Source: Candidatus Jettenia sp. AMX2 (GTDB taxonomy: Bacteria > Planctomycetota > Brocadiia > Brocadiales > Brocadiaceae). Taken from it: a stretch of 64,000 bases of DNA. Numbering within the stretch: the stretch's first letter is position 1; the number at the start of each line of letters is the position of its first letter. Below the pieces are notes generated by a model that had not been told where the DNA came from, made no database searches, and saw nothing but the letters and a program-made list of their open reading frames with translations. Positions 39,921 through 45,987 of the stretch are shown one piece after another. The position numbers and the translations under genes were made by a program. The DNA is taken from assembly GCA_030583665.1 (NCBI GenBank), contig CP129469.1:3277043-3341042 (forward strand), given 5' to 3'.

Positions 39921-40718
39921 ATGATAAAGAGAACGTATCAGAAAATCGCCTTCGCGGAAAATGAATGCTCCGACGGGATGTGTTGTTTTACTTGTGTCAT
40001 CCCGCCTGGCAACGGGCACGTCAGCTTTTTCAAATCGCTATGGAAAAGAGGGACAGCAGCACCCTACGTTAAATTACTGGTTATGAGCGAGGGATATAAA
40101 AACGAATTATATGATTCCTGCAGATTCCTGGACTTCATAATTTATGAAAATCCTGCCGACTCAAGCATGAGGATGGATTTACGCTGCAGTATTTATAAGT
40201 CCCGCCCTGAACAGTGCAAGGGCTACCCAGATAAGGCGGGAGAATCCCTCTATAAGAAAATCAGCGGTCCGTGTATATATAATGAATACACAGCTCCCGG
40301 TTCGTATCAGAAGCTTGTTTATAAAAGGGAATGGCAGGCTTTTTATGCAATCGAGGATCATCCGGAAGCGCTTCGAAATATATTTTCCGGAGCAGATGCC
40401 GTTACTACTGCAAGGGAATCGCTGCTTAAGATAAAGGATGTTCATGTTGCTGTTATATCCCAAAGGAAAAGAGCAACAGATTATATCCTGATTCCCCTGC
40501 CAAAACAGATACAAAATATTATGTATCTATCAGAGAAACACAGGCCGATTACCTCAATAGGAGAAGCTTGTCATCTCTGGAGTGAAAAGATACAAAATAA
40601 TCTTCAAAACCATTACGGAGAGGAATGGGAAAGAAAGCTCAAAAACGCTATAGAAATGGAGGAAAAAGATGCTGGTAAAAGATGTGATGAAAACTCAACT
40701 GGTAACGCTGAATGCTGA
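39921..40718 (+). CDS. YkgJ-like metal-chelating Cys-rich protein
   Basis: This is a 265-residue protein. The N-terminal 130 residues carry ECSDGMCCFTCVIPP and RCSIYKSRPEQCKGYP, the pattern of the YkgJ zinc/iron-chelating family. The second half is a charged helical region without known match (EKIQNNLQNHYGEEWERKLK). The end overlaps the start of the CBS gene by 50 bases in another frame, implying coupled expression. The physiological metal and role are unknown. Confidence 0.75.
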   Translation: MIKRTYQKIAFAENECSDGMCCFTCVIPPGNGHVSFFKSLWKRGTAAPYVKLLVMSEGYKNELYDSCRFLDFIIYENPADSSMRMDLRCSIYKSRPEQCKGYPDKAGESLYKKISGPCIYNEYTAPGSYQKLVYKREWQAFYAIEDHPEALRNIFSGADAVTTARESLLKIKDVHVAVISQRKRATDYILIPLPKQIQNIMYLSEKHRPITSIGEACHLWSEKIQNNLQNHYGEEWERKLKNAIEMEEKDAGKRCDENSTGNAEC

Positions 40719-41085
40719 CACAAAACTTGGTTTCGCTAATGATATTATGTATTTAGGCCGGATAAGACATTTGCCCGTTGTTCAAGGGGATAGTATTGTA
40801 GGCATCCTGACGCAGAGGGATCTCTACCGGGCATCGTTAACTTCTATTCTGACAAGCTGGAAGGAGAATAAAGAATTTCTGGACTCTATTAAAGTCTCTG
40901 ATGTAATGGTAAAGAATGTGATTACCATATCTCCGGATGTAACCGTTGAAGAAGCAGCAAAGGTTATGATCGACAGGAAAGTAGGATGCCTCCCGGTGGT
41001 GAAAGACAACAATAAATTGGTAGGGTTAATTACAGAAACAGACGTAATGCAATATTTTGTAACCCGGATTGAAAAAGGAAATTAG
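40669..41085 (+). CDS. CBS-pair domain protein
   Basis: This is a 138-residue protein made only of two CBS domains (residues about 5-60 and 78-132: MKTQLVTLNADTKLGFANDI, VGILTQRDLY, VMVKNVITISPDVTVEEAA, VGLITETDVM). Such pairs bind adenine nucleotides and regulate partner proteins. The ATG has a strong ribosome site (atggaggaaaaag), and it overlaps the upstream YkgJ-like gene. A second stand-alone CBS pair occurs at 58380. Confidence 0.93.
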   Translation: MLVKDVMKTQLVTLNADTKLGFANDIMYLGRIRHLPVVQGDSIVGILTQRDLYRASLTSILTSWKENKEFLDSIKVSDVMVKNVITISPDVTVEEAAKVMIDRKVGCLPVVKDNNKLVGLITETDVMQYFVTRIEKGN

Positions 41086-41112: not shown

Positions 41113-41337
41113 ATGTGTGATGTAGGCGGACATATAAGTAGTGATATGATTACCTGGCAATGCGCATGCTGCGGATCAGCAATACAAGGATCAAATGATA
41201 CCTTTGAAGGGCTTTGTGATATTGGAATATGTTCATCATGCCGGAACTCTCCCGGTGATTGGATAAGCTTTGTTCAGGAAGAGTGGGATGAAGGCACTTG
41301 TATGGAATGCCCAACTCCCTGTGCTCTCAAAAGGTGA
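41113..41337 (+). CDS. Small Cys-rich putative metal-binding protein
   Basis: This is a 74-residue soluble protein with nine Cys: CDVGG, CACCGSAI, GLCDIGICSSC and GTCMECPTPC. The CxxC spacing is zinc-ribbon- or rubredoxin-like but matches no family I can name. An aaaaggag ribosome site precedes the ATG. It follows the CBS gene by 27 bases, so it likely belongs to the same operon as the YkgJ-like and CBS genes. Its end overlaps the end of the convergent sensor gene by 11 bases. Confidence 0.7.
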   Translation: MCDVGGHISSDMITWQCACCGSAIQGSNDTFEGLCDIGICSSCRNSPGDWISFVQEEWDEGTCMECPTPCALKR

Positions 41338-43519
41338 CATCTTCACAATAACGGAATACACAATCAATTCTCACTGGCTTGCCGCTCTCATCCCGCACAG
41401 GAAGACAGGTCATCACAGAAATAAACGGTTCATTGTTGTGTTTCTTCCAGTGTGTAGTAATATCTCTCCACTCCGCATCTTTTTCAAGCTGCTCAATCAA
41501 CTCTTTCCATTCACCGGTGTTGACGTATCTATCTTTTACCGGTGTTCCGATGACATCTTCCGGTGATGAATATCCAAGAATCTGCGCCCCGGCCTGATTC
41601 ACCCACAGAAACACCCCTTCCGGCACCGGCTCAGACTGAAAGATCCCTTCTCCTGCAAAATCAAAGAATTGCCGGTATCGTCTTTCGGATTTTGCAATCA
41701 CTAATTCTGCCTTCTGTTTCTCCGAAGCATCCCTGAATACCCCATAAACAGCAAGAGTATTTCCCTTGTCATCTTTCAGAAAACTACCGGTAAATTCTGC
41801 ATAGAAACTTTCTCCGTCTTTTCTTTTGCACAGGAAAACAAACTCATTCGTTCCTTCATTTTTCCCCAGGCTCTTACACAATCTTTCCCGGTCCGCCGGA
41901 TCCAGATAAATCTCCTTTGCTTTCATTCCGATGACATCTTCCGGTGATTTATATCCCAGGATCTCTGCCCCTGCCTGATTCATGAAGGTAAATATACCCT
42001 CGATTCCCGGCTCTGAATAGTAAATCCCTTCCTTTACCGAAGAAGAAATTTCCCTGTATTTTTCTTCAGAGATTGCGATCTCTTTCGTTATCTCGCCAAG
42101 GGATTTTGCCATAGTATTAAAGGAGTGTGCCAACTCTCCGGTCTCGTCTTCTTTTTGGATATCGGCCCGCTGTGTTAGGTCACCCGAGACCACCTTCTTC
42201 ATTACTTCTGCAAGTTCAATAATTGGCACTGAAAGTCTTCTGCCAGCAAAGCAAGCCACCAAAGCAAAGGGTAAGGCTATGATTAATACCACTGCAATCA
42301 CAATGTTGCCGAGATTGTAAGCTACCCCATAACCTTCATCTTTATCAATCTCTACCATAACCCCCAGGTTATATCTGGAAACCCATCTCCACGCTCCTAT
42401 TACGGTTATACCTCTGTAATTCTTATATCCGTTTTCATCAAAACCATTGTTGCCGGAAACGCACTGCTGAACACCATCGGTTAACCTGAGTGTTTCCCGG
42501 TTAATCATACTTAGCTCCAGCGCACATCTCCTTTTTATCCAGCCTATTCCTTTCAGATGCTCCGCAAAACGCGATTCGGTAAGCATATATCCATCCTGAT
42601 TCACCAGGTATGTCTCTCCTGTTTTACCCGGCACAAAATTGTTCACTAAATCATTCAGTTTTAATGCATCTGTTCTCAATGCAATACTGCCAATTAACCT
42701 GTCTTTTTTATCTTTTAATGGTATGGAAACAAAGAAAACGGGTATCCCAGGTTCTTCTTCTCCGTATTCATTTTCCAGTGGTATTTCTGAAGGAAAAATG
42801 TTCGATACGAATGCCTCTCCGTATATCGCATCACGGAGATGCTTTAACTTTAAAATATTATTTACCGGCGTCTCTCCCTTTGTAGCAATTATCACAAAGC
42901 CCTTATCGTCACTTACCAGTACGCCCCTGTATCCGTATTCTTTTTTTACTGTTTCCAGATATTGAACAATCTCGGCATATTCTTTATGCCCTTGTGCTCC
43001 CTTTATGTAATTAATAATAACCGGATATTTTGCAATCACATCAGCGTTGTTTACCCTCTCGTGTATCCAGTTGGTTATCAATTCCGCCTGTTTATAGGCA
43101 ATCCTGTCAAGATTTCGTATGAGTACTCCCTGAATGTCAGCCTGCATTTGCGGATAAGCTATCGCTCTCAATAAGAAAATGGGTATTAATATACCTGCAA
43201 TGAAAAACAGAGTAATCCGGTATTGAATGGAGAGGGAAAGTATTTTGCTCTTTAGTGTAGCAGCTTCAGGTTTGAACAAAAAACGCAGGAAAAGAATGGT
43301 GGTAGCAAGTGAAACGACAGCTATGTTTGAGAGGATAATGATAGGATTCTTTAAATGCACTCCATACGCCAGCCACAGACTGCTTCCTGCCATGGTAATT
43401 GTTATTGTTGCCGGCGAGACATCGGAAAGGGACTTTGTCTTTATCCCCCTGATAATTTGCGGTACAAATCCCACGGTTGAGCAAAGTGCAGCAATCGTCC
43501 CGATTATAAACCACACCAT
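41327..43519 (-). CDS. SemiSWEET-dCache-HAMP-PAS-PAS sensory protein without output domain
   Basis: This is a 730-residue protein. Residues 1-85 form a three-helix SemiSWEET/PQ-loop unit (TVGFVPQIIRGIKTKSLSDV, SSLWLAYGVHLKNP). A fourth helix (FFIAGILIPIFLLRAI) leads into a dCache sensor (about 125-400) and a membrane helix near 410-430. Next come a HAMP domain (LAEVMKKVVSGDLTQRADI) and two PAS/PAC domains (about 495-605 and 625-730). No kinase, GGDEF, EAL or methyl-accepting region follows; the protein stops at the end of PAS2. The SemiSWEET fusion is most unusual. It is encoded 102 bases after uvrB on the same strand. Confidence 0.85.
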   Translation of the reverse strand: MVWFIIGTIAALCSTVGFVPQIIRGIKTKSLSDVSPATITITMAGSSLWLAYGVHLKNPIIILSNIAVVSLATTILFLRFLFKPEAATLKSKILSLSIQYRITLFFIAGILIPIFLLRAIAYPQMQADIQGVLIRNLDRIAYKQAELITNWIHERVNNADVIAKYPVIINYIKGAQGHKEYAEIVQYLETVKKEYGYRGVLVSDDKGFVIIATKGETPVNNILKLKHLRDAIYGEAFVSNIFPSEIPLENEYGEEEPGIPVFFVSIPLKDKKDRLIGSIALRTDALKLNDLVNNFVPGKTGETYLVNQDGYMLTESRFAEHLKGIGWIKRRCALELSMINRETLRLTDGVQQCVSGNNGFDENGYKNYRGITVIGAWRWVSRYNLGVMVEIDKDEGYGVAYNLGNIVIAVVLIIALPFALVACFAGRRLSVPIIELAEVMKKVVSGDLTQRADIQKEDETGELAHSFNTMAKSLGEITKEIAISEEKYREISSSVKEGIYYSEPGIEGIFTFMNQAGAEILGYKSPEDVIGMKAKEIYLDPADRERLCKSLGKNEGTNEFVFLCKRKDGESFYAEFTGSFLKDDKGNTLAVYGVFRDASEKQKAELVIAKSERRYRQFFDFAGEGIFQSEPVPEGVFLWVNQAGAQILGYSSPEDVIGTPVKDRYVNTGEWKELIEQLEKDAEWRDITTHWKKHNNEPFISVMTCLPVRDESGKPVRIDCVFRYCEDVTF

Positions 43520-43621
43520 AATGCGCCTCTTCTATTCAGGATATCGTTAGTATCTTCGTGTACAGGTAATTCCTGTGAAACACCGCTCTCGCTTTATCCT
43601 TGCCTATTCTGGTATATTATC

Positions 43622-45628
43622 TTATTTATTGTTTTGTAAGATTCGCGGTACGTTCTTTATACCGCATTTTGCTTGTATTTGCTGTATCTTGTCCCTCAAC
43701 TCAGTTGCGCGTTCAAACTCCAACGCCTCTGCTGCCTCAAGCATCTCTTCTTCCAGTTCCTTCACATACTCCTGGGTTATGTACTCTTCCTCGCTTTCGG
43801 CTACCGTCTCATACACCATCCTGTGTGAAGAAACCTCGTCTTCAATACCCTTTTTAATCTCTTTTTGTATGGTGACAGGGGTAATATTGTGTTTCTTGTT
43901 ATGAGCAATCTGAATCGCCCGGCGGCGGTTGGTCTCGTCAATCGCCCGTTTCATCGAATTTGTGACCTCGTCTGCATATAAGATTACTTCTGCATTCACG
44001 TTTCTTGCTGTCCGGCCAATAGTCTGAATGAGCGAGGTTTCCGAGCGTAAAAACCCTTCCTTGTCAGCGTCAAGAATTGCAACCAGAGAGACCTCCGGCA
44101 GGTCCAGCCCTTCCCTTAGCAAATTAACACCCACCAGCACATCGAATTTACCCAGCCTCAAATCTCTTAATATCGTTACCCTTTCTATGGCATCCAGTTC
44201 AGAATGGAGATACATACCCTTTAGTCCTTCTTCCCTGATATATTCGCTGAGATCTTCTGCGAGCCGTTTTGTTAATGTCGTTACCAGAACCCGCTCTTTT
44301 TTCTCTGCCCGGTTTTTGATCTGTTTCAGCAAGTCCTCTATCTGAGTCCTTGCAGACTTCACATAAATTACAGGATCGACAAGACCCGTAGGACGGATGA
44401 TCTGTTCAACAACCTTACCACCGCATTTCGCTAACTCGTAGGGACCTGGTGTTGCAGAAACAAACAGGACCTGATGTATCCTGGATTCCCATTCATCAAA
44501 CCTTAACGGGCGGTTATCCAGTGCTGAAGGCAAACGAAACCCGTATTTGACAAGGGTCTCCTTGCGTGCGCGGTCTCCATGGTACATACCCCTGATCTGT
44601 GGAACAGAAACATGGGATTCATCTATAATGAGGAAAAAATCTTTGGGAAAGTAATCGAAAAGAGTATAGGGAGTTTCGCCGGGAGCGCGGCCGCTCAGAT
44701 GCCTGGAGTAGTTCTCAATACCGTGGCAATAACCGACTTCCAGAAGCATCTCCATATCATACCGCGTACGCGCCTCCAGGCGCTGGGCCTCGAGAAATTT
44801 CTCCTGTGAACGCAGCTCCCTGAGCCTGTCAATCAACTCATATTCAATTGATCTGACCACCCCTTCAATCTTTCCTTCCGGCATTACAAAATGTTTCGCT
44901 GGATAAATTGACACCTCCCTGACTTTCTGCAAGGAACTTCCGGTCACGGGATTAATTGCAGATATCTTCTCAACCTCATCCCCGAACAACTCTATACGAT
45001 AAGCAAACTCCTCGTAGGCAGGAAAAACCTCAACCACATCCCCGCGTACACGCAGAGAACCGCGGACAAACCGGATGTCATTCCGCTCATACTGGATATC
45101 AACAAGCTTACGCAGTAATTTATTTCGTTCTATATAATCCCCCTGACAAAGGTGAACATACATCTCCTGATATTCTTCAGGGGATCCCAAACCGTAAATA
45201 CAGGAGACGCTGGCAACGAGGATGACATCCCGGCGCGACATAAGGGCACTTGTGGCAGCCAGACGGAGCCTGTCAATCTCCTGGTTAATCGTAGCCTCTT
45301 TTTCTACATAAATGTCCCGTTGTGGAATATACGCCTCGGGTTGATAATAATCATAGTAACTGACAAAATAGCCAACAGCATTTTCCGGAAAGAAACTCTT
45401 GAATTCACTGTAAAGCTGGGCTGCAAGGGTCTTGTTGTGGGTCATCACAAGGGTAGGCTTTCCCAGCGCCGAGATAACATTTGCCATGGTAAAGGTCTTG
45501 CCGGATCCCGTAACCCCCAATAAGGTCTGGAAGTTGATATTTCTCCGGTAATCTTCTGTTAATTGTTGTATTGCACGGGGCTGGTCACCCTGCGGAGTAA
45601 ACGGCGAAACTAATTTAAAAATGGACAT
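43622..45628 (-). CDS. uvrB: UvrABC system protein B
   Basis: This is the nucleotide excision repair helicase-like damage verifier. Walker A is [16 protein letters not shown] (about residue 37 on), the beta-hairpin region reads [20 protein letters not shown], and the helicase motifs [33 protein letters not shown] and QTIGRTARN are all present. The C-terminal UvrC-binding coil ends [18 protein letters not shown] chose the ATG at 45628 ([17 protein letters not shown]), which matches the family N-terminus; a longer frame upstream is not supported. The length is 668 residues. Confidence 0.97.
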
Positions 45629-45987
45629 AAATAACAAACCTAAAAGATGGTGAATTTTACCTTTTTCCAACCTTTTGATTCTAACCAGTAATAACAAGGC
45701 ATTCAAGGGAATTTAATCCTTAACCATAATCAAATACAGCGTTTCTCTTTTAGATCATTCGGGTTAAGGGATTAAGGGTATTTCCTTGCTGCTGATAAAT
45801 AAAAATATCCTGAAGCACACTTTACTTTTGTTCTTTCCTTCTGCTAAACTGACTATCTAATGGAGTAACGGTTCAAAGCAAAGGTGCAAAGGGCGCAAAG
45901 AAGAACTTATCCCTGACATCGTACGTCGCACAGCATTGGATATCAGGAAGCGGTTGCAAGGATTAAAAGTTGGGGAGGAAAAGAGCA
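45629..45987. other. 359-base gap between uvrB and the Na/Pi carrier
   Basis: This is a divergent region that must hold both promoters. I see a caaaggtgcaaagggcgcaaag phrase (about 45878-45899), a common dispersed sequence type, and no gene. Confidence 0.45.

Follow-up and report, generated by a model that had tools for sequence, protein, structure and literature searches.

A SemiSWEET unit joined to an output-less dCache-HAMP-PAS sensor in anammox bacteria, a possible sensor-gated sugar facilitator

Introduction

Bacterial receptors of the classic kind have a kinase, a cyclase or a chemotaxis domain at their end. What, then, is the output of a receptor that stops after its last sensory domain and begins with a transporter? 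The question is raised by a gene on the minus strand (positions 41327-43519) of the window, that is, the whole stretch of 64,000 nucleotides of anammox DNA analysed here. The reading frame is intact and encodes 730 amino acids in the order SemiSWEET-TM4-dCache-TM5-HAMP-PAS-PAS, after which comes the stop codon. The window belongs to a genome of one contig (3.46 Mb) which, together with its sister G001 (Candidatus Loosdrechtia aerotolerans, SOER01), is referred to here as Loosdrechtia.

Each part of this protein has well-known counterparts. The SemiSWEETs 4rng, 4qnc, 4x5m and BjSemiSWEET share with it the three-helix fold, the PQ motif, the Trp and Asn of the pocket, and the Tyr and Gly of the gate; they are, however, free proteins of about 90 amino acids that pair, whereas the unit analysed here forms the N-terminus of a sensor of 730 residues. 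In the excerpts of two papers that deal with this point, the SWEET fusions described are SWEET-SWEET duplications only (PMC5972207, PMC5742349). Sensor kinases and chemoreceptors of the dCache-HAMP-PAS type have sensor, HAMP and PAS in the same order, but the fusion and its nearest subfamily stop after the last PAS. Transporter and sensory domains are also found on one chain in CbrA, an SLC5 symporter with a sensor histidine kinase that has been called a rare transceptor (PMC7096432, PMC13022988); it differs in having a kinase and a response regulator, and in its transporter fold. Among anammox bacteria, Ks-Amt5 of Kuenenia is a fusion of Amt and a histidine kinase (excerpt of PMC5764959). It differs by its trimeric Amt fold and by the kinase that it carries, and no dCache domain is mentioned in that excerpt. 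With a transporter fold and a sensory domain on one chain, the fusion has the composition of a transceptor of the CbrA and Ks-Amt5 type. Transporter-sensor fusions with kinases are already known, while a SemiSWEET fusion without an output domain is undescribed in the open-licence PMC papers searched, where SemiSWEET or PQ-loop proteins were looked for in connection with histidine kinases, sensors or fusions.

Architecture of the fusion protein

All parts are read from the minus strand. The SemiSWEET or PQ-loop unit covers residues 1-85 (43265-43519), with helices at 2-28, 36-56 and 59-81, and keeps P20-Q21, W49, Y52, G53 and N65. It is followed by a cytoplasmic linker and TM4 (residues 86-128; 43136-43264), a stretch devoid of internal ATG codons, and by the periplasmic dCache_1 sensor domain (residues 129-387; 42359-43135). 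TM5, a hydrophobic peak at about residues 403-424 (42248-42313), leads to the HAMP domain (residues 425-474; 42098-42247) and to two PAS domains (residues 508-600, 41720-41998; residues 614-723, 41351-41680). The dCache, HAMP and PAS limits are those of Pfam. The protein stops seven residues after the second PAS domain, at the point where kinases would begin.

The architecture that the sequence-only reading had proposed, a SemiSWEET unit plus a dCache-HAMP-PAS-PAS sensor with no output domain, is upheld by Pfam, by matches to known SemiSWEETs and by the predicted model. In Pfam, residues 3-83 are recognized by the PQ-loop (37.2 bits; cut-off 22) and MtN3_slv (31.8; 23.7) families, the dCache_1 and HAMP domains score 71 bits (cut-off 45) and 51 bits (25), and both PAS stretches exceed their cut-off; the same scan of the 730 residues gave no HisKA/HATPase, GGDEF, EAL or MCP signal domain. 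The NCBIfam SemiSWEET_2 profile reaches 66 bits (E 2.4e-18), below its whole-protein cut-off of 80. Solved SemiSWEETs are matched by residues 5-80 with E values of 5e-11 to 1e-7, and the predicted model of residues 1-97 (pLDDT 86) has the SemiSWEET 4rng as its top structural match (TM 0.76 by target; Z 11.1; 3.2 A over 83 residues), with 4qnc also matched. Mitochondrial pyruvate carrier chains, of the same three-helix fold, rank equally high structurally, at an identity of only about 10%. Residues 1-85 are thus a three-helix bundle with a PQ motif and a family profile match, as in the SemiSWEET/MtN3-PQ-loop family, and the remainder has dCache_1, HAMP and PAS in order with two flanking TM helices, as in the dCache-HAMP-PAS receptor family. 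Hydrophobic peaks and the full-length model agree on three N-terminal helices followed by TM4 and TM5 on both sides of dCache; this model has a pLDDT of 71 and a pTM of 0.43, and its Foldseek matches are PAS proteins and receptors with low TM-scores.

SemiSWEETs have their N-terminus outside. The parts of the fusion fit each other topologically, because this orientation puts the end of the unit in the cytosol, where TM4 begins. Since the ancestral start position of the sensor is a CTT leucine codon in the window copy, and no ATG lies between the two parts, the gene would be expected to yield a single polypeptide.

An output-less sensor subfamily

The sequence-only reading had also considered a simple truncation, with close homologues that carry a kinase or GGDEF domain and a stop in this gene. 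What was found is different: two paralogues of the same genome match the fusion at 58% and 57% identity from residue 91 or 95 onwards, and they too lack an output domain, their PAS domains numbering three and four. Relatives with HisKA and HATPase exist in the same genome, but at about 38% identity. All 24 family sensors of alignment A4 have dCache, HAMP and PAS, and none has an output domain; the C-terminus of the family lies at the DIT motif with which the last PAS closes. As far as the compared sequences tell, the lack of an output domain characterizes the sensor subfamily of the anammox lineage as a whole. In G010 and G008, separate genes encode the dCache membrane part and the soluble PAS part of the sensor (L098 6662-8463; L102 3001-4907).

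Distribution, locus and origin

A search for the same architecture in other genomes, advised by the sequence-only reading, found it in four further assemblies. The full-length fusion is present, with conserved synteny, in the window genome, in L. aerotolerans and in three Jettenia genomes (G005, G012 and G017, the last being Candidatus Jettenia ecosi, SULG01). The number of PAS domains differs among these orthologues (one in L. aerotolerans, two in the others). Chance read-through or assembly error was rejected as a source of the fusion, the same continuous frame being found in the four other assemblies; two of the five fusion-bearing genomes are single contigs. With the SemiSWEET_2 and PQ-loop profiles (392 and 394 Planctomycetota genomes), sensor-length open frames were found only in the five fusions. 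One other long frame, of 463 amino acids in G301, was rejected as a sensor fusion, being an open frame in GC-rich DNA that encloses a small PQ-loop-like protein. Two scans of GTDB contigs were made with short peptide patterns, whose reach is limited to close relatives: the whole fusion protein gave no hit, and the N-terminal alignment picked out L. aerotolerans and J. ecosi alone.

In the rest of the family, SemiSWEET is a free protein of about 90 amino acids, and in several genomes its gene occupies the same locus. The order there is glnA, carbonic anhydrase, cysteine-rich protein, CBS, a 74-residue ORF (in some), metallophosphoesterase and SemiSWEET, after which some genomes have DUF456 or uvrB. 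In the window, the conserved neighbours of the fusion are the CBS-domain gene (40669-41085, plus strand), a convergent CxxC-rich ORF of 74 amino acids (41113-41337, plus strand) and, upstream and on the same strand as the fusion, uvrB (43622-45706, minus strand). The DUF456 gene, although beside the SemiSWEET gene in relatives, is absent from the window locus (43520-43621), and a metallophosphoesterase gene was not found in the window genome. The 74-residue ORF has no Pfam match, is conserved at the locus in three compared genomes, and its end overlaps the 3' end of the fusion by 11 bases on the opposite strand. Jettenia has the fusion in tandem with a free SemiSWEET, the two lying about 20 bases apart; in Loosdrechtia, the fusion is the sole SemiSWEET/PQ-loop gene left.

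In the trees, the five fused sensors form one clade (support 100/96), and so do the five fused SemiSWEETs (100/99). Because both halves form single clades, the joining of SemiSWEET and sensor is read as a single event in evolution. The nearest neighbours of the fused SemiSWEETs are the free tandem copies of Jettenia, with weak support (87/77). In a tree to which the Jettenia operon sensor was added, with kinases as outgroup, the fused sensors come out as sister to their unfused counterparts in Loosdrechtia and Jettenia, and the joint group has an SH-aLRT of 98. The simplest account would be a tandem doubling of the SemiSWEET gene, followed by insertion of a copy of the operon sensor that became joined in frame, and later by loss of the free copy in Loosdrechtia. 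A second case of local duplication is found in G053, of the same order and another family, where about 1.6 kb separate two free SemiSWEET genes (L092 5001-5261 and 6880-7236).

Pore residues and selection

Residues F18, P20, Q21, D33, S35, W49, Y52, G53 and N65 are invariant in all five fusions; their pocket and gate roles in SemiSWEETs are given in an excerpt of PMC5972207. W49 and N65 (W48 and N64 in Lb numbering), the Trp and Asn of the substrate pocket, are in addition invariant in all the aligned free SemiSWEETs. At the pocket position Thr13 (Lb numbering), Ser is found in the five fusions and Thr in all 23 free Brocadiaceae copies, this Thr being a common residue and not a strict family criterion, and the exchange a conservative one. 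This position is one of several that set the fusions apart from all, or nearly all, free copies; the others are Lb 40, 41, 63 (A to S), 65 (G to V/I), 66 (F to S/A) and 71, and several of these changes flank the pocket Asn. Only in the window copy has the Met of the inner gate become Thr. The stem branch of the fused SemiSWEET is long (0.68, versus a median tip of 0.03).

Nei-Gojobori dN/dS values lie between 0.04 and 0.36 for all domains in all pairs with computable dS, and between 0.05 and 0.29 in the SemiSWEET part; between genera dS is saturated, and only the values within Jettenia are reliable. In several pairs, conservation is lowest in the linker that separates the two membrane modules. 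The dN/dS values indicate that the joined protein is maintained under selection. Because the residues are kept and dN/dS is low, and because there are fusion-only changes and a long stem branch, the data speak for a pore that is altered yet still constrained.

Possible modes of action

A single joining that has been kept under selection suggests that sensor and transporter may act on each other directly. The preferred reading, held tentatively and at somewhat less than an even chance, is that the transporter replaces the missing output domain, the protein being a sensor-gated sugar facilitator. Two fusion chains would pair and their SemiSWEET units would form one pore; dCache in the periplasm and PAS in the cytosol would report solute and cell state, and the change would pass via TM4, TM5 and HAMP to alter the opening of the facilitator in the same dimer. 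Such gating is consistent with the lack of output domains in all 24 family sensors, the transporter operons of the unfused sensors, the retained pore residues, the low dN/dS, the fused clades, the topological fit and the fact that the fusion is the only SemiSWEET/PQ-loop gene that Loosdrechtia has kept. On the other side, the weakly conserved linker does not favour rigid mechanical coupling, and the operon neighbours are also compatible with simple co-expression. As a matter of reasoning, two C2-symmetric membrane modules on one chain could not share an axis without rearrangement. The pocket-flanking changes common to all fusions may mean that transport is altered or gone.

It is possible, although rather improbable, that the protein acts as a transceptor. 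The SemiSWEET unit would then be an extra input that responds to the flux or binding of sugar and may itself transport little, and the signal would exit through contacts of the PAS domains with a separate protein in trans, for instance the one-helix coiled-coil protein or a dCache histidine kinase homologous to the sensor. In Ks-Amt5 of Kuenenia a transporter fold has become a sensor (excerpt of PMC5764959), and the protein is stated to be non-transporting in an excerpt of PMC7438415; the stem branch of 0.68 and the fused-only changes around the pocket suggest a changed role, and a kinase with an NtrC-type regulator lies just upstream of the operon of the unfused sensor in some genomes. However, in none of the five genomes does the fusion adjoin the coiled-coil gene or a kinase, and the intact substrate residues are not strictly needed by a pure sensor.

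A distinctly unlikely reading is that the two parts are independent and that the fusion serves only to bring them to the same place, for example an anammox membrane, or to have them made together. The weak conservation of the linker, the variable number of PAS domains between orthologues and the free SemiSWEET kept beside the fusion in Jettenia would all agree with a loose tether, but two genera have retained one and the same fusion, and Loosdrechtia has lost the free gene. A truncated or decaying histidine kinase, or an artefact of ORF joining, is hardly credible: the window copy does evolve fastest within the family clade (tip 0.68) and has an atypical C-terminal end (FRYCEDVTF instead of RDITER), but close paralogues and orthologues are equally output-less, the frames are intact in five assemblies, selection is purifying, and no kinase remnant was found downstream of the fusion's stop.

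Transporter operons of the unfused sensors

The unfused sensors are commonly found in an anammox transporter operon (L010 2141-7434; L099 5202-10381; L100 5188-10409; L098 4922-8463; L102 2244-6581). An HPP gene lies directly upstream of the sensor (within about 0.7 kb) in about 42 of the 48 genomes with an HPP match, as counted by eye from coordinates, and downstream is a gene for a one-helix coiled-coil protein, with matches, a few of them weak, in 46 of 59 genomes. The fuller operon (HPP, sensor, coiled-coil, receiver and FNT) is found in Loosdrechtia and in Brocadia- and Jettenia-type genomes, the receiver-only protein being encoded between the coiled-coil and FNT genes in L010, L099 and L100. 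In L098, L099 and L102, from Brocadia- and Kuenenia-type genomes and G008, a dCache kinase and an NtrC-type regulator are encoded just upstream. A second sensor paralogue adjoins efflux genes of the OEP/CusB type, and Scalinduaceae-like copies of the sensor are near NhaA. The output-less sensors are thus found beside transporters, of which the fusion is the covalent case, an association and not a proof of control.

Under nitrite limitation, Kuenenia raises the expression of focA_2 and of an HPP gene near it, and HPP has been proposed as a nitrite carrier there (PMC7438415). Gene order suggests that this locus may be that of L098 (HPP, sensor, FNT), and the output-less sensors may in this way bear on nitrite handling by anammox cells. 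The receptors form a conserved anammox subfamily with transporter neighbours and no C-terminal enzyme, joined to a transporter in one lineage. Returning to the sensor-gated facilitator, its wider form, which is unlikely, would be a receptor-gated bacterial sugar pore: the receptor would have as its output that the SemiSWEET attached to it opens, and its output-less relatives would likewise act directly on the HPP, FNT and efflux transporters encoded in their operons. Should the transporter prove to be the output, this would be a new mode of transport control in bacteria, for which the fusion offers a one-gene test object.

At one Jettenia locus (L101 4078-7541), a homologue of the coiled-coil protein is encoded beside a protein of 815 amino acids that ends in a Na+/H+ exchanger domain and in which about 400 residues at the N-terminus have no assigned domain; PII-like and FNT genes are nearby.
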